64,000 bases of DNA, from NCBI GenBank assembly GCA_014860585.1, contig JACZJL010000134.1, positions 1-64,000 of the forward strand, read 5' to 3'. Position 1 is the stretch's first letter. Each line of letters begins with the position of its first letter. The DNA comes from Bacteroidales bacterium (GTDB lineage Bacteria; Bacteroidota; Bacteroidia; Bacteroidales; 4484-276). Positions 25,999 to 36,355 of this stretch are shown here, one piece after another. The notes below the pieces were generated by a model that ran no database searches, was not told where the DNA came from, and was given only the letters and a program-made list of their open reading frames with translations. Position numbers and translations under genes: made by a program.

Positions 25999-28900
25999 TT
26001 ATATCCACTTCACCAGTGCAAAATCCTGCCTGTGCGGAATAAGTTTATGTTTAGGGAAAACCCTGAATCCATAATTGAATGTTCCCGCTTGTGATGCAGG
26101 GATATCCACAGTATATCTTGCCCGACTGTTGACTACCTCAAGGGGTGTCATTTCGCGGGTGAACAGAATTTTCCTCACACCACTGATATCTCTTTGAGAA
26201 AACAGGATTTCGACTCCAAGATGCTTTGGTGAAATACCATTGCTGTATAGAGTAACCTCGGCTGAAAAGGTGTCTTCAAGGTAAATTGGGCTTTCGGCGT
26301 CGGATATCATTAGTTTTTCCAGTTTGATCTCATGCCATTTTGAGCGGATCTCCTGCTTCCATTGTGCATATTCATCGGCAAGCCTGTAATTGCTTTGACG
26401 AATCATGTTGGTTCTTTCGATGAGTTTGCTGTAAAACCTGCCCTGGTAGTCCTCGAGCATTCGCTTCATTGTAAAATGAGGGGCAATGTCCGAAATTGTA
26501 TTCTTGATGTACTTCACCCATTTTTCAGGGATTCCGTCAGCGTTTACATCGTAATACAGCGGTAGAATGTTTTCTTCGAACACATTATAAATGATCTCAG
26601 AGTCAAGTTCATCCTGGAACTGCTGGTTGGCGTAAGTTCTGGCTTCCTGAATGGCAAAACCGGCATTTTCTTTAAAACCTTCAGCCCACCATCCATCGAG
26701 CACCGAAAAGTTGACCACGCCATTCATCACAGCTTTTTCGCCACTTGTTCCTGAAGCTTCGAGTGGTCGGGTAGGGGTATTCAGCCAAATATCAACCCCT
26801 GGAATGAGCATGTGAGCCAGTTCCATATCGTAGTTTTCCACAAAAATCACTTTCCCGATGAAGGCTTTGGTTTTGGAAATTTCGATGATTTTTTTAATCA
26901 GTTCCTGGCCTTCGGTATCTTTGGGGTGGGCTTTTCCGGCATAAATGAATTGAATAGGTCTTCCGGAGTTGTTCACGAGTTTTTCAAGACGTTCGAGATT
27001 GGAAAAGAGCAATTTTGCCCGTTTATAGGTTGCAAATCTTCTGGCGAATCCGATGGTAAGTGCGTTTTCGTTCAGCGATTCAACAGTTTGAATGACAAGT
27101 TTCGGGTTTTCCTGCCTTTTGGTCATCTCTTCACGGAGTCGCACCTTGAGGTAAGTGATCAGGTCTTTTTTCAGTTGTTTTCGTGAATTCCAAACTACTT
27201 TGTCTTCCACCTCATGCACAACCTGCCACATATCGAAATTGGTCTGCTTTTGTTTGTAGTCTTCACCGAAAATCTTTTTGTAAAGCTGCTTCCAGGGTTT
27301 TGACGCCCAGGTTGGAAGGTGAACTCCGTTGGTAACATATCCCACGTGCAATTCGGCAGGGTAGTAACCATCGTAAAGTTTTGCAAACATTTCCTGAGAA
27401 ACCCTTCCATGAATGCGGCTCACGCCATTGATTTCCTGCGAAAGCTTGGCTGCCAGCACACTCATCGAGAATTTGGTTTCCGCTCCGTTTTCAACCCATT
27501 TACCAAGATTCATAAACTCATCCCAGGTAAGGTTTAGCCGCTCGGGGTAGTGAGGGAAGTAGGTACGCAGCAAATCCTCGGTAAACACATCGTGTCCTGC
27601 AGGTACGGGGGTATGTGTTGTAAAAAGTGTTGATGAACGTACTACTTCGATGGCCTGATGAAAAGTAAGTTTTTCTTCCTGGATGAGATACCGGAGCCTC
27701 TCAAGCCCGATAAATGCTGAATGTCCCTCGTTACTGTGATATATTGTTGGCTCAATTCCTATCGCTTTGAGCACCCGGATACCTCCCACACCGAGCACCA
27801 ACTCTTGTTTTAGGCGATTCTCGGAATCGCCCCCATAAAGGTGATGGGTGATCTTACGATCAGTTTCTTCGTTTTCCGAAAAATCCGTATCAAGAAGGTA
27901 CAGGGGGATTCTCCCTACCCCGCAGCGCCAAACCCTTACGTAGAGCAGCCTGCCGGGTAGTCCGATCTGGATTTCGACCTGATTGCCATTTGCATCCAGT
28001 ACCTTTTCGATGGGGAGTTGTGAAAACTTCTGTGCCTGATACTCGGCCACCTGGTCGCCAAAGGCAGAGATACTTTGCTGAAAATATCCATATTTGTAAA
28101 TGAGGCCTATAGCGACAAGGTTTTCGTTGGAGTCGCTGGCTTCTTTCAGATAATCACCGGCCAACACTCCAAGCCCGCCGGAGTATAGTTTAAGGGACTG
28201 ATGCAGTCCATATTCCATGCTGAAATAAGCAATCTGTGCTTTAGGTTTATTCTTGCTTTCAGCAATATAGTCATTGAATTTGTTGTAGGACTCAAGGTAT
28301 TTTTCATGGAATACCTTATCGCTTTCCAATGCCCGCCATTGATCAATGTTCAACGAGTCGAGCAGCGCAATCGGGTTTTGTCCAACCTCTTTCCATATTT
28401 CGGGGTTAATGGTTTCAAACATATCCGTTGCTTTGAAATTCCATGACCACCAAAGATTTCTGGACAGTTTTTGCAACCCTTTGAGTTTCTCAGGTATTTT
28501 GGGTTCGATGACTACTTTTTTCCATACCGGGGCGTCCTGGTGGGGTGTCTCAGTTAGTTTTGTCTTACGTTTCAAAGGAGTCCTTACAGGGAAAGTTTCA
28601 ACCCGCCCTTCAACTTTTTCAAGCGCCAGGGAATAAAGCTCAAGATAGTGTTCGTTAAAATCCTGCCAGTCGGCTTTGCTTGCAATTTCCGAAGCATTTT
28701 CTCTAAGGTCAGTTTGTTGGTCAAAAGGCATCCTGGCAAACTTTTGAATCATCCCTGAGAGTTCATCAATTACCTGTGCATCATCATTGTCAGGTCGATT
28801 GATTACCGAAACTGACGGATGGTTATCCGGGAATTGATCGAGCACCCATTTTCCAAAACCTGCCTGCATGGTAGTAATGGTAGGAACCCTGAAAGCGATG

Positions 28901-30243
28901 CTTTCGAGGGGTGTGTACCCCCATGGCTCATAATAAGAGGGAAAAACCGACAGATCGAAACCCGGAAGCAGGTCGTAGTAAGAAAGATCAAAAATGCCGT
29001 CATCTCCATTAAGATAAGCGGGGACAAAGACAATCTTCACCTTTGATTCAGGCGCATTAGTCAACCCAGCTTTTTTAATCTCCTTCAGAATGGCATCCTC
29101 AGCAGGGTAATAAAGATCATGTGTAAGGTATTCACCGGCTATCGGATGCTCAAAATCAGTTTTTTTCATCCGTTCGAGTAGTCCTTTACAGGCGCCTGAA
29201 TGGTTAGCCGGAATTTTCACAAAAGCAATAATTTCCCTGTCGGGATTCTCCCTGGCAACCTTTCCGATCGCACTAATAAACAGGTTAATACCTTTATTTC
29301 TGAACTCGTATCTTCCACTGGTAATCGTCAGGAAGACATCTTCTGAAATCTTACAATTCAGGAGCGCTTCTACAACTTTTGCCATTCGTTTACGGGCTGT
29401 TTCCCGTTTCTTTAAAAATTTCTTCTCATCCAGAAAAAGTGATGCGGAGAGCCCGTTAGGTGTAACGAGATCAACCTTTTTTCCCAGCAATTTATCCGTC
29501 TCAACCGCTGTGATCGCGCTCACTGTTGAGAATGAATCGGCAGCAATAGCGCTCTTTTTTTCGAGAGAATACCTGGAAACAATCCCCAGTTGCCTGGCCA
29601 TGTCGTCTCCGTTGTATTCATTAATTTTACCATAAAGAGGCAATCCGTTTCCTGAAATCGAACGCCCAATTGTAGTGGCATGTGTTGTAAATACGGTGGC
29701 CACCTGCGGAGCAAATTCATTCAGGTAAAGGATACCAGAGCCGGTCATCCACTCATGGAAATGAGCCACAACCTTATCGGAGTAACTAAGATAATGATTG
29801 AAAAAACTTTCTATCACTTTCCCGGTAGCGTAACCAAACATGGCCGGCTCTACATAATCCCACTGACCACTGATGGAGTCTAGCTGGTAGCGCTCCCATA
29901 GTTTTGCGAAAATTTTATCTTTTTCCGGAAAAAGGGTTGTGAAATCAACAAGAACAGCGATGGGGCTGCTCTCAATGTTCCATCGCCCAATGCGGAAAAA
30001 GAGACCTGCTTCGGCGGCCGATTCGCGCCACTCGGCAAATAGGGCTTTATCTTCAGTAAAGGTCGGATTCTTGCGGGCTTCTTTCCAAACATCGGGACCA
30101 ATTGTGATGTACTGGTCACCGAATTCCTTTTTCATTATCGGGGCTTTTGTTGACAGTACGGTGTAAATACCGCCTATCATATTGCAAACTTCCCAACTCG
30201 TTTCGAACACATAGTTGGGCTTGAGTGATCTTTCTTCTGTCAT
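25999..30243 (-). CDS. Fusion of glycogen synthase (GT3-like) and alpha-glucan phosphorylase (GT35)
   Basis: The protein has 1414 residues. Residues 1-560 form a retaining GT-B glycosyltransferase resembling eukaryotic-type glycogen synthase: ETSWEVCNMIGGIYTV at 13-29 and the E-x7-E pair E439/E447 in YEPWGYTPLE. A charged linker follows (560-580), then a DUF3417-like segment (LQKLSRNLWWSWN) and a GT35 phosphorylase. The latter has YFSMEYGLHQSLKLYSGGLG, and its PLP-binding Lys1170 in GTSGEKAVMNG. A beta-rich tail ends the chain (1300-1414). Both active sites look intact, so one chain could extend glucan from a sugar nucleotide and also release glucose-1-phosphate. Fusions of this kind are found in Bacteroidota. 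It closes the minus-strand glycogen cluster but has its own promoter-like region and terminator. Confidence 0.9.
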   Translation of the reverse strand: MTEERSLKPNYVFETSWEVCNMIGGIYTVLSTKAPIMKKEFGDQYITIGPDVWKEARKNPTFTEDKALFAEWRESAAEAGLFFRIGRWNIESSPIAVLVDFTTLFPEKDKIFAKLWERYQLDSISGQWDYVEPAMFGYATGKVIESFFNHYLSYSDKVVAHFHEWMTGSGILYLNEFAPQVATVFTTHATTIGRSISGNGLPLYGKINEYNGDDMARQLGIVSRYSLEKKSAIAADSFSTVSAITAVETDKLLGKKVDLVTPNGLSASLFLDEKKFLKKRETARKRMAKVVEALLNCKISEDVFLTITSGRYEFRNKGINLFISAIGKVARENPDREIIAFVKIPANHSGACKGLLERMKKTDFEHPIAGEYLTHDLYYPAEDAILKEIKKAGLTNAPESKVKIVFVPAYLNGDDGIFDLSYYDLLPGFDLSVFPSYYEPWGYTPLESIAFRVPTITTMQAGFGKWVLDQFPDNHPSVSVINRPDNDDAQVIDELSGMIQKFARMPFDQQTDLRENASEIASKADWQDFNEHYLELYSLALEKVEGRVETFPVRTPLKRKTKLTETPHQDAPVWKKVVIEPKIPEKLKGLQKLSRNLWWSWNFKATDMFETINPEIWKEVGQNPIALLDSLNIDQWRALESDKVFHEKYLESYNKFNDYIAESKNKPKAQIAYFSMEYGLHQSLKLYSGGLGVLAGDYLKEASDSNENLVAIGLIYKYGYFQQSISAFGDQVAEYQAQKFSQLPIEKVLDANGNQVEIQIGLPGRLLYVRVWRCGVGRIPLYLLDTDFSENEETDRKITHHLYGGDSENRLKQELVLGVGGIRVLKAIGIEPTIYHSNEGHSAFIGLERLRYLIQEEKLTFHQAIEVVRSSTLFTTHTPVPAGHDVFTEDLLRTYFPHYPERLNLTWDEFMNLGKWVENGAETKFSMSVLAAKLSQEINGVSRIHGRVSQEMFAKLYDGYYPAELHVGYVTNGVHLPTWASKPWKQLYKKIFGEDYKQKQTNFDMWQVVHEVEDKVVWNSRKQLKKDLITYLKVRLREEMTKRQENPKLVIQTVESLNENALTIGFARRFATYKRAKLLFSNLERLEKLVNNSGRPIQFIYAGKAHPKDTEGQELIKKIIEISKTKAFIGKVIFVENYDMELAHMLIPGVDIWLNTPTRPLEASGTSGEKAVMNGVVNFSVLDGWWAEGFKENAGFAIQEARTYANQQFQDELDSEIIYNVFEENILPLYYDVNADGIPEKWVKYIKNTISDIAPHFTMKRMLEDYQGRFYSKLIERTNMIRQSNYRLADEYAQWKQEIRSKWHEIKLEKLMISDAESPIYLEDTFSAEVTLYSNGISPKHLGVEILFSQRDISGVRKILFTREMTPLEVVNSRARYTVDIPASQAGTFNYGFRVFPKHKLIPHRQDFALVKWI

Positions 30244-30526: not shown

Positions 30527-31330
30527 CTATTTACTCAATTCAAGAAGTTTTGATTTAATTTCAGGCGGCATTTTCCATGAAAAATCGTTTGCAATTTTGC
30601 TGTAAGCAGTTTCCCATTCTGCGGATTCCTTGTCGATCAACTTCTCTCTGTTGGCTCTCAGGTACCTGTGTATTTCATAAACCATGTTAAATCCATTGTA
30701 AGCATTCTCGCTGTTACTAAAAGCATGGATGGCATCATCAATATCTCTGGAAAGAAGAAATGAAAATCCTTTTGTTTGCCATTCCAAAGCAGTTTCAAAG
30801 TCTTTACTGGTAATGCTTTTCCCAGGAAGTATGATTTCAGGATTTATCAGCCGTTGATTGTTCTCCATTTGCTGTTTCAACATGCTGAGTTGCTCCTGGT
30901 GGTGAAGGTTATCATTGTCACCATCAAGGATTATTTGATTGTATTTTGCTCTTGTTATCGAATCGTTCACAAGAACAGGAGCGATATACTTTTGGTATTC
31001 TTTATCAACTTCGTTGTAATAGTCGTACCATCCTTTTTTCAATTTTTCAGAAGGTGTAACATAAGCAAAAAATTGAGCCAACATCCGTTTCTGCCCCGGT
31101 TCCTTATTCAGAACTATTAACTCGGTTACATATTTATCATACTGCTGCATTTCCTGCATACCGGCAGCCCTGTCGCGGAAGCCATAATCTATGACAGTAG
31201 TCATCACAACCAACGCTACGCTTCCGATAAACCATTTCAGTAATTCAATTTTTAACTTGTACTTTTCAAAATTGATTCCCTGATTATTTGTCTTATCAGG
31301 CTGATTATCATCAATTGTTTCGGTTTCCAT
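30527..31330 (-). CDS. Unrecognised single-pass membrane protein in the glycogen cluster
   Basis: The protein has 267 residues from the ATG at 31330. An upstream alternative at 31384 adds unrelated residues. A charged, Asn/Asp-rich N-terminus precedes one membrane helix (about 32-52, FIGSVALVVMTTVIDYGF). The remaining 210 residues are charged and helical, with possible coiled coil (HHQEQLSMLKQQMENNQRLI) and a TPR-like stretch (SRDIDDAIHAFSNSENAYNGF). I do not recognise a family. It sits between the GH57 gene and the synthase-phosphorylase fusion on the same strand, but a terminator precedes it, so a shared role is only possible. Confidence 0.6.
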   Translation of the reverse strand: METETIDDNQPDKTNNQGINFEKYKLKIELLKWFIGSVALVVMTTVIDYGFRDRAAGMQEMQQYDKYVTELIVLNKEPGQKRMLAQFFAYVTPSEKLKKGWYDYYNEVDKEYQKYIAPVLVNDSITRAKYNQIILDGDNDNLHHQEQLSMLKQQMENNQRLINPEIILPGKSITSKDFETALEWQTKGFSFLLSRDIDDAIHAFSNSENAYNGFNMVYEIHRYLRANREKLIDKESAEWETAYSKIANDFSWKMPPEIKSKLLELSK

Positions 31331-31401
31331 TTTATGGTTTCTTTTAGTTATCAATCTGGTTAGTAATTCATTTACAAATAGCATGATGTAAAATATTGTG
31401 T

Positions 31402-31482: not shown

Positions 31483-33057
31483 TCATGAGAGGAACTTTGA
31501 AATCTTCTCTGCAATTTTCTTCCTGCTTTCAGCGATGTCGTTTTTGTTTATCTTTTTAATTTCACCGGCAAGCCGGTCATATTCAGCTTTTGCCGATTTG
31601 GTGAGGTTGGGCAGCACTTTGTCTCTCACTTCATCCGTAGCGTCTTTCAGCGCATAAAGCAGGTTTTGAGCGTCAATTTCCTTAAGCAGGGATTTTACCT
31701 TTGCATTCGATAGATCCTTGATATGGTCAAGATTGACGGACTCGGTTTTGGCAGAAGCAACCACTTCCTGAACTTTTTTGGTGGTGGCTTTTACTGCTTT
31801 CCTGGTGACATCGGAAATCTCCTTTCCTAATTCTCCGGCCTTTTCGATGATCTTTTCACCACCTGATTTTCCGCACTTTTCTTCAACCCTGATGGTGAAG
31901 TCGGAGAGTACGTTCATGTAGTTGATAAAAGCTTCATAGGGTGAATTGTAGGGATTGAAATATTTATGTACATCGCCGTCGGAGAACCACTTTGTACACA
32001 TATAATAGAAATGATCACTATTCTGTAGCCTGTACCAGTCGCTCATGATTTCGGGATCGTTGCACCCTTTAATTCTGGACTCAAGGGCATACAATTTACT
32101 AAAGGCTTCATCCTGCATTTCGTTACCAAGCCAGGCAGTGATATCACGCTCTTCATCTGCCCACGAAATGGGGTAGGGGACATGAATGGCCGAGATGGGT
32201 TGCAATTCCTTTTCCAGTTCGGAAGGTGTGGCAAATTTGAATTTTTTGGTTTTTAAAACTTTGGCCGGAAGTGAGGCCATAAAGTCAAAAATGCCGGTTT
32301 CGCGCCATTGATGCTCGCCGAAGGTTTCGTAGTCCATAAACAGGTTGATCACATCCTCATTTTTGTTGAGATCGAGGAGCCAGTCTGTGAATTTATCGGC
32401 TGTGAGCGGCCACTCACTCCACCCGTGGTTGGAAAACCTGAAAGCGATATCGTCGCTCAGGGTGTGGTTTTTGAGCAATACTTTCAACTTCGGGTTACGC
32501 GCGTTGCAATACATGAAGTTTGAGCTTTTCCAGCCAAGCACATGCTTTGCGCCTTCGGTGAGCATGAGTGTGTAGCCCATGTCGTGCACCATTTCGCCGA
32601 TTTCGTCCGAGTAGATCAATTCGGTGTTTCGGAAAGTAGTTGGCTTGACACCAAAAAGCGATTCAATTTTTTTACTGTGCAGTTCAACCTGTTCTGCAAA
32701 CTCAGTCTTGCTTCTGAGCGATGAAAGAGAATGCGCGTAGGTTTCGGCTAAAAACTCCACGTTACCTGTTTCTGCAAGCTTTTTAAAACTCTGGATTACT
32801 TCTGGTGCATAGGCCTCGAATTGTTCAAGCGCATGGCCTGTGATCGAAAAACTCACTTTAAAATCTTTTCCATGTTTTTTGATGAGTTTCAACAACAAGT
32901 CATTCATCGGCAGGTAGGATTTCTGAGCTACCCTGCTCATGATATGGCTGTTTTCGAAATCATTATAATAATAATGATCATGACCCATATTGAAAAAACG
33001 ATAGGTTTTTAACCTGAATGGCTGGTGAACCTGGAAATAAAAACAAATTGATTTCAT
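31483..33057 (-). CDS. GH57 alpha-amylase-like enzyme with FliG-C-like C-terminal domain
   Basis: The protein has 524 residues. Residues 1-390 are a glycoside hydrolase family 57 catalytic domain: HQP at 11-13, nucleophile Glu146 in FRNTELIYSDE, and acid/base Asp242 in MDYETFGEH. It should act on alpha-1,4 glucans in the cytosol (no signal peptide). After a Lys/Glu-rich helical linker (395-440), residues 443-520 resemble the C-terminal domain of flagellar motor protein FliG: LLKEIDAQNLLYALKDA aligns with LREIDGQELAKALKSV of FliG, with NLTKSAKAEY and DIAESRKKIAEKI also matching. It is 34 bp downstream of the glycosyltransferase gene and clearly part of the glycogen operon. Confidence 0.9.
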   Translation of the reverse strand: MKSICFYFQVHQPFRLKTYRFFNMGHDHYYYNDFENSHIMSRVAQKSYLPMNDLLLKLIKKHGKDFKVSFSITGHALEQFEAYAPEVIQSFKKLAETGNVEFLAETYAHSLSSLRSKTEFAEQVELHSKKIESLFGVKPTTFRNTELIYSDEIGEMVHDMGYTLMLTEGAKHVLGWKSSNFMYCNARNPKLKVLLKNHTLSDDIAFRFSNHGWSEWPLTADKFTDWLLDLNKNEDVINLFMDYETFGEHQWRETGIFDFMASLPAKVLKTKKFKFATPSELEKELQPISAIHVPYPISWADEERDITAWLGNEMQDEAFSKLYALESRIKGCNDPEIMSDWYRLQNSDHFYYMCTKWFSDGDVHKYFNPYNSPYEAFINYMNVLSDFTIRVEEKCGKSGGEKIIEKAGELGKEISDVTRKAVKATTKKVQEVVASAKTESVNLDHIKDLSNAKVKSLLKEIDAQNLLYALKDATDEVRDKVLPNLTKSAKAEYDRLAGEIKKINKNDIAESRKKIAEKISKFLS

Positions 33058-33091: not shown

Positions 33092-34372
33092 TTACTTAAA
33101 TAAAGTGTCATATACCTGAACGATTTTGAAGGCAGCATTGTCCCATTTAAGGCTGTCAACTTCATCTTTTCCATATTTCTGAAAAGTTTTACGCAATGAG
33201 TCGTAGTGTAGCAAACCGTAAATCGAATCGGCCATGCCGTGCACATCCCAGAAGTCTACCTTGAGGGCATGTTTGAGAATTTCCGCAACGCCCGATTGTT
33301 TTGAAATGACCACCGGTACGTTGGATCGCATGGCCTCCAGCGGAACGATACCAAAAGGTTCTGACACCGAGGGCATCACGAACACGTCGCTAAGCAGAAA
33401 CATTTTATCTACATCAGCTCCTTTGAGAAAACCGGTAAAATGAAATTTCGTAGCGATTTTCAGCTGAGCAACGCGTTTAATCATTTTATTCATCAGGTCG
33501 CCCGACCCGGCCATAACGAACCTAACATTCTGATCCTGCTTCAGGATAAGGCTGGCGGCTTCGATGAAATACTCAGGGCCTTTTTGCTGAGTGAGTCTTC
33601 CGAGGAAAGTAACCACTTTTTCCTTTACATGCCGTTTCACATCATCCACCTCTTTATCAGTAGGTTCTACAGCATTGTGTACCGTGAAAACTTTATCGGG
33701 GTTAATTCCGTATTTTTCAATAACGGTAGTTCTCGTAAGATTACTTACCGTGATCACCCTGTCAGCTTCTTCCATTCCCTTACGCTCAATATCGTAGATG
33801 TTTTGGTTAACATTTACTCCTGAGCGGTCGAACTCTGTGGCGTGCATGTGAACAACAAGTGGTTTCCCGGTAACATTTTTGGCAGCAATTCCAGCTGAAT
33901 AAGTGAGCCAGTCGTGCGCGTGAATGAGGTCGAACTGGGATTTTTTTGCTATCCCTGCAGCCACCAGCGCATACCTGGAAACTTCAGCCATGAGGTCGGT
34001 GCCATAAGCGCCGGAAAAATTGAACTTTGTGCTTGTTACTTTTTGTTCTAACGAAACTCCTTCGAGCCTGTTTTCTTCTGCAATACGGGCAAATTCCTGC
34101 GGGCTGACATAAGGAATCAGGTTCGATCCGATCTCCATGTAGGTGATCTTCTTCCAGAACTCTTTGTAGTCCTCATCGGATGAATCAACCAATACATCGC
34201 TTGCATTCACAATTCGCACCGCCGATTCGTCCTCATCCCCGTATGCCTTTGGCACAACAAAGATCGTCTCTATGCCCTGATTGGCAAGGCCTTTTGTCAT
34301 ACCGTAACACGCAGTTCCTAAGCCCCCTGAAATATGGGGAGGGAATTCCCATCCAAACATTAATACTTTCAT
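33092..34372 (-). CDS. Glycosyltransferase (GT4/GT5 type), probable alpha-glucan synthase
   Basis: The protein has 426 residues from the ATG at 34372. The preceding TTG is less likely. GT-B fold: N-terminal VLMFGWEFPPHISGGLG with the sugar-binding glycines, a C-terminal retaining E-x7-E motif (SEPFGIVPLEAM), and TFLGRLTQQKGPEYFIEA between them. Because it lies between a debranching enzyme and a GH57 amylase it is probably involved in glycogen or maltodextrin synthesis rather than cell-surface glycosylation. Donor sugar nucleotide not determinable. Confidence 0.85.
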   Translation of the reverse strand: MKVLMFGWEFPPHISGGLGTACYGMTKGLANQGIETIFVVPKAYGDEDESAVRIVNASDVLVDSSDEDYKEFWKKITYMEIGSNLIPYVSPQEFARIAEENRLEGVSLEQKVTSTKFNFSGAYGTDLMAEVSRYALVAAGIAKKSQFDLIHAHDWLTYSAGIAAKNVTGKPLVVHMHATEFDRSGVNVNQNIYDIERKGMEEADRVITVSNLTRTTVIEKYGINPDKVFTVHNAVEPTDKEVDDVKRHVKEKVVTFLGRLTQQKGPEYFIEAASLILKQDQNVRFVMAGSGDLMNKMIKRVAQLKIATKFHFTGFLKGADVDKMFLLSDVFVMPSVSEPFGIVPLEAMRSNVPVVISKQSGVAEILKHALKVDFWDVHGMADSIYGLLHYDSLRKTFQKYGKDEVDSLKWDNAAFKIVQVYDTLFK

Positions 34373-34411
34373 GAGCAAATCCTGTTACTTCTTAATTTAT
34401 GTTGAATGTGA

Positions 34412-36355
34412 CTATTCATAATTTTTTATCATTTCAATGATTCTTAGCAGTTCGGCAACCGATGAAGCCATCGAGATGGCGCCTGAAGGGTGGTGCGGTG
34501 GATCACCGTCAAAAATTTCAGAAATAGTGCCTATGCCATAAGTTTGCATCTCGGGTTCCAGTCCATTGAACAGATTTTTGATGACAAACAGCCCGCCTTT
34601 TTTGTAAACTTTCAGGTAGGCTTCGGCATAATGCCCGATCAGCCATGCTACCACTGAACCCTGGTGATAAGCTTCATCACGTTCCTGCTCAGTTCCGCGG
34701 TAAACACCTTTGTATTTCAGACTTTTTGGTGTTAAAGACCGTAACCCTTTTGGAGTAAGTAATTCTCTTTCAACAACGTCAAGGATTCTTTTTTGCTGGA
34801 TATCACTCAACGGCGAATAAGGCATCGAAACAGCAAGCAGCTGGTTTGGACGTACCGACCAGTCCTTGAAGTTGCCATTGGTGTAGTCGGCAAGGTAACC
34901 TTTCTCCTGGTCCCAGAATTCAGCTTCGAATCCAGTTTTGATTTTTTCCGGAATACCTTTCCATTGACCTGTAAATGTTGAGTCTTTGGCTGCTTTGGCC
35001 AGCTCAAGACTAAACATTACAGCATTGTACCAAAGGGCATTTACTTCGACTGGCAGGCCTATTCGCGGTGTTACGGGTTTTCCGTTAACCAGGGCGTTCA
35101 TCCAGGTTATCGCATTTCCGGTTTCTCCTGCAAACAGCAGCCCGTTTTCCTGCATCTTAATATTATATTGTGTTCCATCCCGGTAAGCATTCAGGATGAG
35201 TTTCATTACATTTCTGTATTCATTCCATATTTTGGCTTTCTCGCCGGTTTTTTCGACATACTTTTGCAGCGCCCAGAAGAACCATAATTGAGTGTCAACT
35301 GAGTTGTAGTTTATCGTATGATTCTTAATAGTATTGTGGAAAAAAGGTCCTTGCATAGTCGAAATCATCGAATCAATGACTTCTTTGAAGGTTTTTGTAT
35401 CATCCCGGGTAAGCAAAAGACCCGGCAGCGACATAAATGTGTCGCGACCTATGCTGCCATACCATGGGTAACCGGCCAGCACTTCAACCTTATTCTCTTT
35501 TCGGATAACAAACTGTTGTGCTGCATTGATGAGACAGTTCTCGAATGAGTTTCTCGGGAGCCTTTTTTTCCCTTCTGCAACAAATCTTTGCTTTAAACCT
35601 GTTGGGTTAATTTCTGCAGTTCCGGCGGCAAGGATGACAGATTCACCTTTAGCAATTTCAATCTCAAAGTACCCGGGTACATAGAGGTCTTCAACTGAAT
35701 CATAACCTCTCAGACTCTCGTGCGTGTATTCAATATTGTAATACCAATCAGGCACATGCACATATTCTGTCTTTTTCGAAAATTGAATAAAAAGTGGTGA
35801 ATAGCCGTCATACATGGTAACCTTAATCCCATTTTTAACGGGCTCATATTTTTTATTGGCATCAATATTGGCTTTTGAAAGCTCATGAATGTTGCGGAAC
35901 GCAAGGAACGGCTTGAGCCTTAATTTAGTTGGTGAATTTGCTTCAGCCAACGTGTATTTGATGAGCACCTGATTTTCATGTGAAGAAAACAGAATTTCCT
36001 TTTCGAGAACGACACCACCTACCCTGTAAGTAATTTTTGGAGCGGGATCGAGTTCAAAATTCCTTACATATTTATGACCTTTTGGGGCATACACGCCATT
36101 TTGGTATTTGTGGATTCCCAGGTTAAAATCGGCATCATGCTGAATCACGGTCTCGTCGAGTGTAGAGAGCAGCACATGCGGGTCGTTACCGAATTGTGGT
36201 TGCGGTACAATGAGTAAACCATGGTATTTCCTGGTGTTGCAATTAATGATTGTGGTTGAAGCAAATGCACCAGAGCGGTTCGAGCGGAGGAGTTCACGTC
36301 GTAATGAATATTCGAGGTTAATTAACTGTGTTTTGTCAAACTTAATGTAGGCCAT
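34412..36355 (-). CDS. Glycogen debranching enzyme (amylo-alpha-1,6-glucosidase)
   Basis: The protein has 647 residues. A beta-rich N-terminal domain (NRSGAFASTTIINCNTRKYHGLL, about 1-260) is followed by an (alpha/alpha)6 GDE_C domain. The latter has WYGSIGRDTFMSLPGLLL, NHTINYNSVDTQLWFFWAL, ETGNAITWMNALVNG and AYHQGSVVAWLIGHYAEAY, which match amylo-1,6-glucosidases. It cleaves alpha-1,6 branches of glycogen. First gene of the minus-strand cluster. A TACTTTCG element (36424-36417), one mismatch from TAnnTTTG, lies about 60 bp upstream. Confidence 0.93.
   Translation of the reverse strand: MAYIKFDKTQLINLEYSLRRELLRSNRSGAFASTTIINCNTRKYHGLLIVPQPQFGNDPHVLLSTLDETVIQHDADFNLGIHKYQNGVYAPKGHKYVRNFELDPAPKITYRVGGVVLEKEILFSSHENQVLIKYTLAEANSPTKLRLKPFLAFRNIHELSKANIDANKKYEPVKNGIKVTMYDGYSPLFIQFSKKTEYVHVPDWYYNIEYTHESLRGYDSVEDLYVPGYFEIEIAKGESVILAAGTAEINPTGLKQRFVAEGKKRLPRNSFENCLINAAQQFVIRKENKVEVLAGYPWYGSIGRDTFMSLPGLLLTRDDTKTFKEVIDSMISTMQGPFFHNTIKNHTINYNSVDTQLWFFWALQKYVEKTGEKAKIWNEYRNVMKLILNAYRDGTQYNIKMQENGLLFAGETGNAITWMNALVNGKPVTPRIGLPVEVNALWYNAVMFSLELAKAAKDSTFTGQWKGIPEKIKTGFEAEFWDQEKGYLADYTNGNFKDWSVRPNQLLAVSMPYSPLSDIQQKRILDVVERELLTPKGLRSLTPKSLKYKGVYRGTEQERDEAYHQGSVVAWLIGHYAEAYLKVYKKGGLFVIKNLFNGLEPEMQTYGIGTISEIFDGDPPHHPSGAISMASSVAELLRIIEMIKNYE

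Follow-up and report, generated by a model that had tools for sequence, protein, structure and literature searches.

A glycogen synthase and a glycogen phosphorylase in one polypeptide: a putative bifunctional enzyme of glycogen turnover in Bacteroidia

Introduction

The making and degrading of one polymer are usually separated and oppositely regulated. Eukaryotic glycogen synthases like GYS1 and Gsy2 (8cvx, 4qlb) belong to the same family, GT3, as one half of the protein described here, which differs from them in being fused to a phosphorylase, and the solved phosphorylases of the TIGR02094 type (9l6i, 20yr) are stand-alone chains without a GT3 half. In Bacteroidales, adjacent GT3 and GT35 genes of the same families, order and strand as in the protein described here encode two separate proteins; Bacteroides is presumably an example of such a pair. 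A bacterial fusion of two enzymes of an alpha-glucan pathway is likewise described in a paper on the GlgE pathway, but that fusion, TreS-Mak, joins consecutive steps (PMC11046441), whereas the one presented here joins opposing ones. No paper describing a GT3-GT35 fusion was found in the literature searched. Here, we describe such a fusion from a draft genome of a Bacteroidales bacterium (GCA_014860585.1), together with its relatives in the host order and in other orders of the class.

Gene and domain architecture

The window, i.e., the whole stretch of 64,000 nucleotides that was analysed (contig JACZJL010000134.1), carries the fusion gene on its minus strand; the initial annotation gave no strand. 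The features are as follows:

25999..30243, minus strand: GT3-GT35 fusion gene, 1414 aa, ATG start
28609..30222, minus strand: GT3 glycogen synthase half, residues 8-545 (PF05693)
29311-29313, minus strand: R311 of the GT3 half (alignment with GYS1)
29293-29295, minus strand: K317 of the GT3 half (alignment with GYS1)
28927-28929, minus strand: E439 of the GT3 half (motif YYEPWGYTPLE; alignment with GYS1)
28903-28905, minus strand: E447 of the GT3 half (alignment with GYS1)
28504..28608, minus strand: linker, residues 546-580, of near-constant length and variable sequence
28192..28497, minus strand: DUF3417, residues 583-684, N-terminal part of the TIGR02094-type phosphorylase (Pfam)
26425..28233, minus strand: GT35 catalytic region, residues 671-1273 (TIGR02094)
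27037-27039, minus strand: R1069 of the GT35 half (sequence comparison)
27022-27024, minus strand: K1074 of the GT35 half (sequence comparison)
26734-26736, minus strand: PLP lysine K1170 of the GT35 half (motif GTSGEKAVMNG)
26002..26424, minus strand: C-terminal part of the phosphorylase half, residues 1274-1414 (alignment with the solved stand-alone chain 9l6i)

The initial annotation had described a GT3-like synthase and a GT35 phosphorylase in one chain, and the Pfam and NCBIfam scores bear this out, all of them far above chance: 313.7 bits for Glycogen_syn (PF05693; gathering score 27), 105.5 bits for DUF3417, 112.2 bits for Phosphorylase (PF00343), and 841.5 bits for the TIGR02094 alpha-glucan family phosphorylase over residues 671-1273 (cut-off 191.7). 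The phosphorylase half in full (DUF3417/TIGR02094 GT35) covers about residues 581-1414, and residues 567-1414 match the stand-alone phosphorylase over almost its whole length (922 bits). This open reading frame is the sole source of both GT3 and GT35 matches in the draft genome (194 contigs, 96% complete).

The positions given earlier for E439, E447 and K1170 match the 1414-aa translation exactly, and both active sites appear complete, as had been claimed. In the GT3 half, alignment with GYS1 places R311 and K317, which we take to be the donor-phosphate pair, and the E-X7-E pair E439 and E447, presumably the catalytic glutamates; the GRYEF-NKG Arg/Lys and YYEPWGYTP-E motifs are common to this half and the eukaryotic enzymes. 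The GT35 half contains K1170, which we take to be the PLP lysine, as well as R1069 and K1074, the presumed phosphate contacts by comparison with the muscle enzyme. The eukaryotic-type controls of GT3, whose roles we assume, were not seen in the fusion protein. Residues 349-372 (24 residues) face 71 residues in GYS1 (373-443), presumably the site of the tetramer insert, and the arginine cluster is not kept in residues 503-527, which hold only two arginines, R504, which is not conserved, and R514, which is Arg in 49/81 fused proteins. This arginine-rich stretch we take to be the glucose-6-phosphate site of eukaryotic GT3, though not one required of all GT3 enzymes.

The linker stretch as measured is 32-34 aa long in 93/101 fused proteins, and visual inspection of 22 linkers revealed no motif common to them. 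Both observations argue against a single translated chain that is later cut into two enzymes. This is very improbable, even though the linker is variable in sequence, Lys/Pro/Thr-rich in the window protein, and the stand-alone phosphorylase is a solved protein.

Distribution of fused and split forms

Among 393 evenly sampled genomes from the host order, 230 have the fusion in one open frame and 66 have the halves as neighbouring genes. A further nineteen fusions come from other orders of the class. The 51 split pairs that were read comprise the same two families in the same gene order and on the same strand. GT35-only genomes and genomes with remotely placed GT3 and GT35 genes also occur in the host order, and because such relatives exist, covalent linkage of the two halves is not essential. 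A compact form without DUF3417 is also among the natural variants.

The possibility, named earlier, that the join is a sequencing or assembly artefact is contradicted by its recurrence in the many assemblies counted above, and the chance of this is negligible. Although the draft genome consists of 194 contigs, the window sequence contains no N, the junction shows no break in composition, and a full-length relative with 80% identity (L035, RZYY01000045.1) comes from a separately deposited MAG. Some candidates were rejected as fusions. The open frames of 1449-1476 aa in seven genomes (G347, G413, G513, G584, G596, G698, and G761) are split pairs, since the DNA shows separate open reading frames with stops at the junction. 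An apparent triple GH57-GT3-GT35 fusion (L131, a 1891-aa frame) has its extra length from an overlapping open frame that is not the one encoding GH57.

Ancestry of the fusion

In the trees, the two-gene form is one clade nested inside the fused proteins, adjoining a fused family. An early GT3 tree set the fused proteins apart by a poorly supported branch (support 54), and a remotely split row with a branch length of 10 (L243), which represented a wrong reading frame, was left out of later trees. A first AU test, with 21 fused rows and none from family f85, did not reject a single clade of fused proteins (p 0.62). With f85 included, such a clade was rejected (p 0.0005) on 20/101 fused and 9/51 split rows, a set drawn from the host order. 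The choice of f85 followed a tree, as fused and GT35-only proteins both occur in this family, whose GT35-only row L204 is sister to the split clade; the group under test (all fused proteins) was named before the f85 rows were added. Because the split clade is nested in the fused proteins and the AU test rejects a single fused clade, the fusion appears to be the ancestral state, later split once. The two-gene form thus appears to be derived by one fission, which changes the evolutionary reading.

Conservation and selection in the two halves

The GT35 residues K1170, R1069, and K1074 are invariant in 101 in-order fused, 51 split, 8 GT35-only, and 19 fused proteins from other orders, and are hence intact in all fused proteins read (120/120). 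The four GT3 residues R311, K317, E439, and E447 are intact in 96/101 in-order and 19/19 other-order fused proteins (115/120 in total), so that the possibility of one active site being dead across homologues, also raised earlier, does not hold. dN/dS is low in both halves of close pairs (dN/dS 0.054/0.428 for GT3 and 0.059/0.548 for GT35 in L042/L168).

The initial annotation had asked whether one half is regulatory. The GT3 half could chiefly serve the phosphorylase as a module for glycogen binding or regulation, with synthesis secondary or lost; we regard this as unlikely. The losses do fall on GT3, as the four residues are altered in 5/101 in-order fused proteins vs. 0/51 split ones, but the difference does not reach significance (Fisher p 0.17; p 0.32 with 5/120). 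Any change at ten GT3 core positions is found in 12/101 vs. 0/51 (Fisher p 0.009), but these positions were picked after the alignment had been seen and the rows are related. At matched GT35 identity, without the three degenerate rows L124, L193, and L194, the GT3 halves of fused proteins are more conserved than those of split ones, which rules out a general decay of GT3 after fusion and, together with the 115/120 intact sites, stands against the module.

In favour of a regulatory GT3 half are the GT35-only genomes and two related proteins, L193 and L194, which have lost GT3 residues of about 265-530, i.e., the C-terminal catalytic domain including E439 and E447. They retain the GT3 N-terminal domain (64% aa identity, dN 0.26, dS 2.7, the latter near saturation), apparently under purifying selection and joined to an intact GT35 half. 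In general, the sequences do not bear out the idea of one regulatory half, but this lineage does have a non-catalytic GT3 remnant.

Proposed function

The fusion, its spread, the intact catalytic residues, the low dN/dS in both halves, and the split clade are read from sequence. On these grounds, we consider it probable (roughly 70%) that the protein is an ancient bifunctional glycogen-turnover enzyme of the class, presumably the Bacteroidia, with a net direction set by its substrates. We infer its activities, donor, control of direction, and linker role as follows. The N-terminal GT3 half would transfer glucosyl units from a nucleotide sugar onto the non-reducing ends of glycogen, and the C-terminal, PLP-dependent GT35 half would use phosphate to remove glucosyl units from the same chain ends as glucose 1-phosphate. 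The linker of near-constant length would keep the halves at a 1:1 ratio, and the gene would act within an operon-like cluster with a debranching enzyme, a GT4, and a GH57 protein. The levels of donor versus phosphate and glucose 1-phosphate would set the net direction, with some cycling tolerated, and a single split would have given the lineage with two genes its neighbouring pair. Futile cycling may simply be tolerated, because a published account reports simultaneous synthesis and breakdown of glycogen in many microbes of the rumen and elsewhere (PMC4432691).

A more far-reaching reading, possible but doubtful, is that glycogen in this class was ancestrally handled by the covalent synthase-phosphorylase, and that the GT3 half also serves the phosphorylase in a second, non-catalytic role, like glycogen anchoring or allosteric gating. 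This role would outlive synthase catalysis, as in L193 and L194, and the two-gene form would be a derived escape from coupling. If the GT3 half does anchor or gate the phosphorylase, futile cycling could also be prevented.

For the bifunctional enzyme, a long-conserved chain with both sites intact makes the control of futile cycling testable with one protein and two point changes, and the split pair, GT35 alone, the dead GT3 remnant, and the DUF3417-less compact form are ready comparisons.

Nucleotide-sugar supply and neighbouring genes

Six NTP_transferase genes were found in the host genome, none of which (0/6) is best matched by the GalU or GlgC model, a point against the proposed function. 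A PF01704 (UDPGP) search gave no match in this genome and none in any control either, so this absence says nothing about the glucosyl donor. The draft genome (96% complete) yielded no full GlgA plus GlgC of the GT5 ADP-glucose pathway, the only GT5 trace, outside the window, being a 301-aa GT5 N-domain.

Three putative partners lie upstream of the fusion gene:

31483..33057, minus strand: GH57 family glycosidase (Pfam)
33092..34378, minus strand: GT4-type glycosyltransferase (Pfam and NCBIfam)
34412..36355, minus strand: glycogen debranching enzyme, GDE_N/GDE_C (Pfam and NCBIfam)

Phosphorylases are reversible in vitro, and in vivo the phosphorylase half might work towards synthesis, in which case both halves would build glycogen without opposition. 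The neighbouring GDE and GH57 families, if we assume their roles correctly, could then serve breakdown. However, cellular phosphate usually favours phosphorolysis and the draft genome yielded no second GT35 for breakdown, which makes this reading very improbable.

None of the 52 loci classed as split, which include a fusion broken by a stop (L189), has GH57, GT4, or GDE in the fetched flanks, which reach at least 3 kb upstream in 31/52. In the fetched flanks of 57 fused loci, GH57 is found in 34, GT4 in 32, and GDE in 28, and all 134 of 134 cluster-gene matches (duplicate loci counted) lie upstream of the fusion on the same strand. The fusion gene thus often comes after the GDE-GT4-GH57 glycogen genes.

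Domain Architecture and Catalytic Residues

In the window, a single open reading frame joins a GT3 glycogen synthase (N-terminal half) to a GT35 phosphorylase (C-terminal half):

30243 down to 25999, minus strand, GT3-GT35 fusion ORF, 1414 aa

Pfam matches are Glycogen_syn at residues 14-347 and a second stretch (313.7 bits), DUF3417 at residues 583-684 and Phosphorylase at residues 836-1184, and the NCBIfam model TIGR02094 spans residues 671-1273 (841.5 bits). The nearest solved chains are eukaryotic glycogen synthases (4qlb, GYS1, Gsy2) for residues 4-350 and 373-548, and stand-alone alpha-glucan family phosphorylases (9l6i, 20yr) for residues 567-1414. No break in base composition was found at the junction of the two halves. 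The linker is variable in sequence; its length ranges from 29 to 37 aa across 101 fused proteins, 93 of which have 32-34 aa. One relative (L035, 'Sphingobacteriia bacterium') is 80% identical to the window fusion, and four others (L036-L039, 'Bacteroidales') are 48-52% identical. Por_Secre_tail and GWxTD domains also occur in the window and, together with these relatives, point to Bacteroidota as the phylum of the genome.

The initial annotation had placed active-site residues at E439 and E447 (GT3) and K1170 (GT35), and all three positions were confirmed; the residue roles at both sites are presumably those of the eukaryotic enzymes from which we carried them over. Conservation was assessed by ORF-level reading of 101 fused, 51 split (GT3 and GT35 as neighboring genes) and 8 GT35-only loci from the same order, after removal of five duplicate loci. 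Eleven checked GT35 positions, including K1170, R1069, K1074, and E1162, are invariant in all three groups, and ten of them are invariant in 19 fusions from other orders. The GT3 residues R311, K317, E439, and E447 are altered in 5/101 fused proteins of the order (L097, R311K; L266, R311S; L124, E439D; L193 and L194, region deleted), 0/51 split proteins and 0/19 other-order fusions, and the fused-split contrast is not significant (Fisher p 0.17 for 5/101; p 0.32 for 5/120). Across ten core GT3 positions, changes occur in 12/101, 0/51, and 0/19 proteins, respectively (p 0.009 for 12/101; 0.019 for 12/120), with positions picked after the alignment had been seen and with related rows.

In close pairs, dN lies far below dS in both halves, for example with dN and dS of 0.020 and 0.434 (GT3) and 0.013 and 0.391 (GT35) for L036/L038, and 0.072 and 1.10 (GT3) and 0.055 and 1.30 (GT35) for L063/L067. 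Between the window gene and L035 synonymous sites are saturated (dN 0.168 and 0.104). Pairs with a GT35 identity of 0.60-0.65 have a mean GT3 identity of 0.581 if fused (235 pairs) and 0.535 if split (529 pairs).

A Lineage Without a Complete Synthase

Two genomes of one genus encode shortened fusions of 1157 and 1188 aa:

L193, 3980-7450, open frame, shortened fusion
L194, 1063-4626, open frame, shortened fusion

Both lack the GT3 C-terminal region (about 265-530) and retain the GT3 N-terminal domain, in which several core residues are also altered, the stretch that aligns to the final helix preceding the linker, and an intact GT35 half. Between the two, identity is 64% for the GT3 N-terminal domain (dN 0.26; dS 2.7, near saturation) and 77% for the GT35 half; two further members of the genus (L195, L196) still have full GT3 halves. 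Judged from these sequences, a non-catalytic GT3 domain seems to be retained in the lineage, which suggests that the domain serves a structural or regulatory function in these two proteins; alternatively, the remnant may represent decay in progress.

Futile Cycling and Glycogen Genes of the Genome

How a protein with two opposing activities would avoid futile cycling had been raised in the initial annotation. Control of eukaryotic GT3 enzymes presumably involves G6P and a tetramer insert. GYS1 has 71 residues where the GT3 half of the fusion has 24, and its arginine-rich stretch is missing from the GT3 half, which makes control of the eukaryotic type unlikely. Analogy with the simultaneous glycogen synthesis and breakdown mentioned for many rumen and other microbes (PMC4432691) suggests that cycling may be tolerated or substrate-controlled in the fusion.

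All GT3 and GT35 matches of the draft genome (4.73 Mb, 194 contigs, 96% complete) fall in the fusion ORF. Beyond the window, GlgA-like sequence is limited to a remnant, a 301-aa GT5 N-domain, which fits the remark in a review that Bacteroidetes retain a fragment of GlgA-GT5 (PMC11046441). Eight of the frames with a GH13 match were classified, and they include one GlgB-like protein and one type I pullulanase. For none of six NTP_transferase matches was GalU or GlgC the best model; GlgC is absent from Bacteroidetes according to a statement in another review (PMC10395257). One of the six, a 302-aa nucleotidyltransferase without class assignment (L214:1096-2001, minus strand), is a possible sugar-donor source.

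Distribution of Fused and Split Forms

The terms 'order' and 'class' denote kinship ranks of the search, which we infer to correspond to Bacteroidales and Bacteroidia. In an even sample of 393 same-order genomes, 352 had a match and 41 had none, and 351 of the 352 were sorted into types. Essentially full-length one-frame fusions number 230, including a few that end short (e.g., G521, beginning at residue 108) and four stop-flagged rows counted as fused because reading gave stop-free frames. Another 24 are partial with the junction crossed in one frame, mostly at contig ends and some with internal gaps, and two are broken by a stop. The remainder are split and adjacent (66), GT3 and GT35 apart (10), GT35 only (14, one of which, G764, has a GT3 match on another contig) or other fragments (5). 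In two draft genomes (L050, L189) an in-frame stop, either real or a sequencing error, interrupts the fused ORF. Some genomes of the order carry a distant GT3 (L228-L233, 609-629 aa, about 30% identical), which accompanies the fused gene in G449, G652, and G716 and a separate GT35 in G465, G567, and G658, these last three, with the distant GT3 only, being counted among the ten.

Among 395 evenly drawn genomes of the class, 40 match at E 1e-100, and reading from DNA showed fusions in 19 genomes beyond the order. Two of these fusions are compact (L270, 1173 aa; L271, 1149 aa), without DUF3417 and the phosphorylase C-terminal part. In a phylum sample of 395 genomes, only the window's own gene spans both halves among the matches listed. 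Among the titles and abstracts retrieved by searches of the open PMC literature, none describes a GT3-GT35 fusion; subscription papers and database annotations lay outside the scope of this search, and the fusion may well be annotated somewhere already.

Evolutionary History

In all 51 split loci GT3 lies upstream of GT35 on the same strand, with gaps of 19-205 nt in the 31 measured (19 later-read loci were left out, as was L139, where a long upstream open frame yielded a false negative gap). A FastTree phylogeny built from GT35 halves (101 fused, 51 split, 8 GT35-only, and 6 outgroup rows) places every split row in a single clade (support 100). The sister group of this clade is fused family f85 together with its GT35-only member, L204 (99), and one change between the fused and split states suffices. 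IQ-TREE with a mixture model recovered the same placement from 33 rows (97 and 100), and an AU test rejects a single clade of all fused proteins plus L204 (p 0.0005); without f85, a single fused clade is not rejected (p 0.62). In the GT3-half tree f85 adjoins the split clade (94), with a distant outgroup; an earlier GT3 FastTree without f85 set the fused proteins apart from the rest by a weakly supported branch (54). With other-order fusions added under a simple model, the early branches are fused proteins and an other-order GT35-only row (L010). The best reading of these phylogenies is that fusion came first and was probably followed by a single fission; transfer between lineages is also compatible with the trees.

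Gene Neighborhood

Upstream of the window fusion, on the same strand, lie genes for GDE, GT4, and GH57, followed by a further ORF:

30527-31384, minus strand, 285-aa ORF between GH57 and the fusion

This ORF has no Pfam or NCBIfam match, and none of the other loci compared carries an ORF like it; its presence accounts for the GH57-to-fusion spacing of about 1.2 kb in the window, which is often <100 nt elsewhere. The flanking sequence of 57 fused loci contains GH57 in 34, GT4 in 32, and GDE in 28, and each occurs in seven of the eight GT35-only loci; none occurs in the fetched flanks of the 52 loci classed as split (broken fusion L189 included). The upstream flank reaches at least 3 kb in 51/57 fused, 8/8 GT35-only and 31/52 split loci, so the absence of the cluster from split loci holds for the fetched flanks only. 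All 134 GH57, GT4, and GDE matches at fused and GT35-only loci, duplicate and short-flank loci included, are upstream on the same strand. In the window's GH57 protein (31483-33057, minus strand), the C-terminal part matches FliG_C (45 bits).
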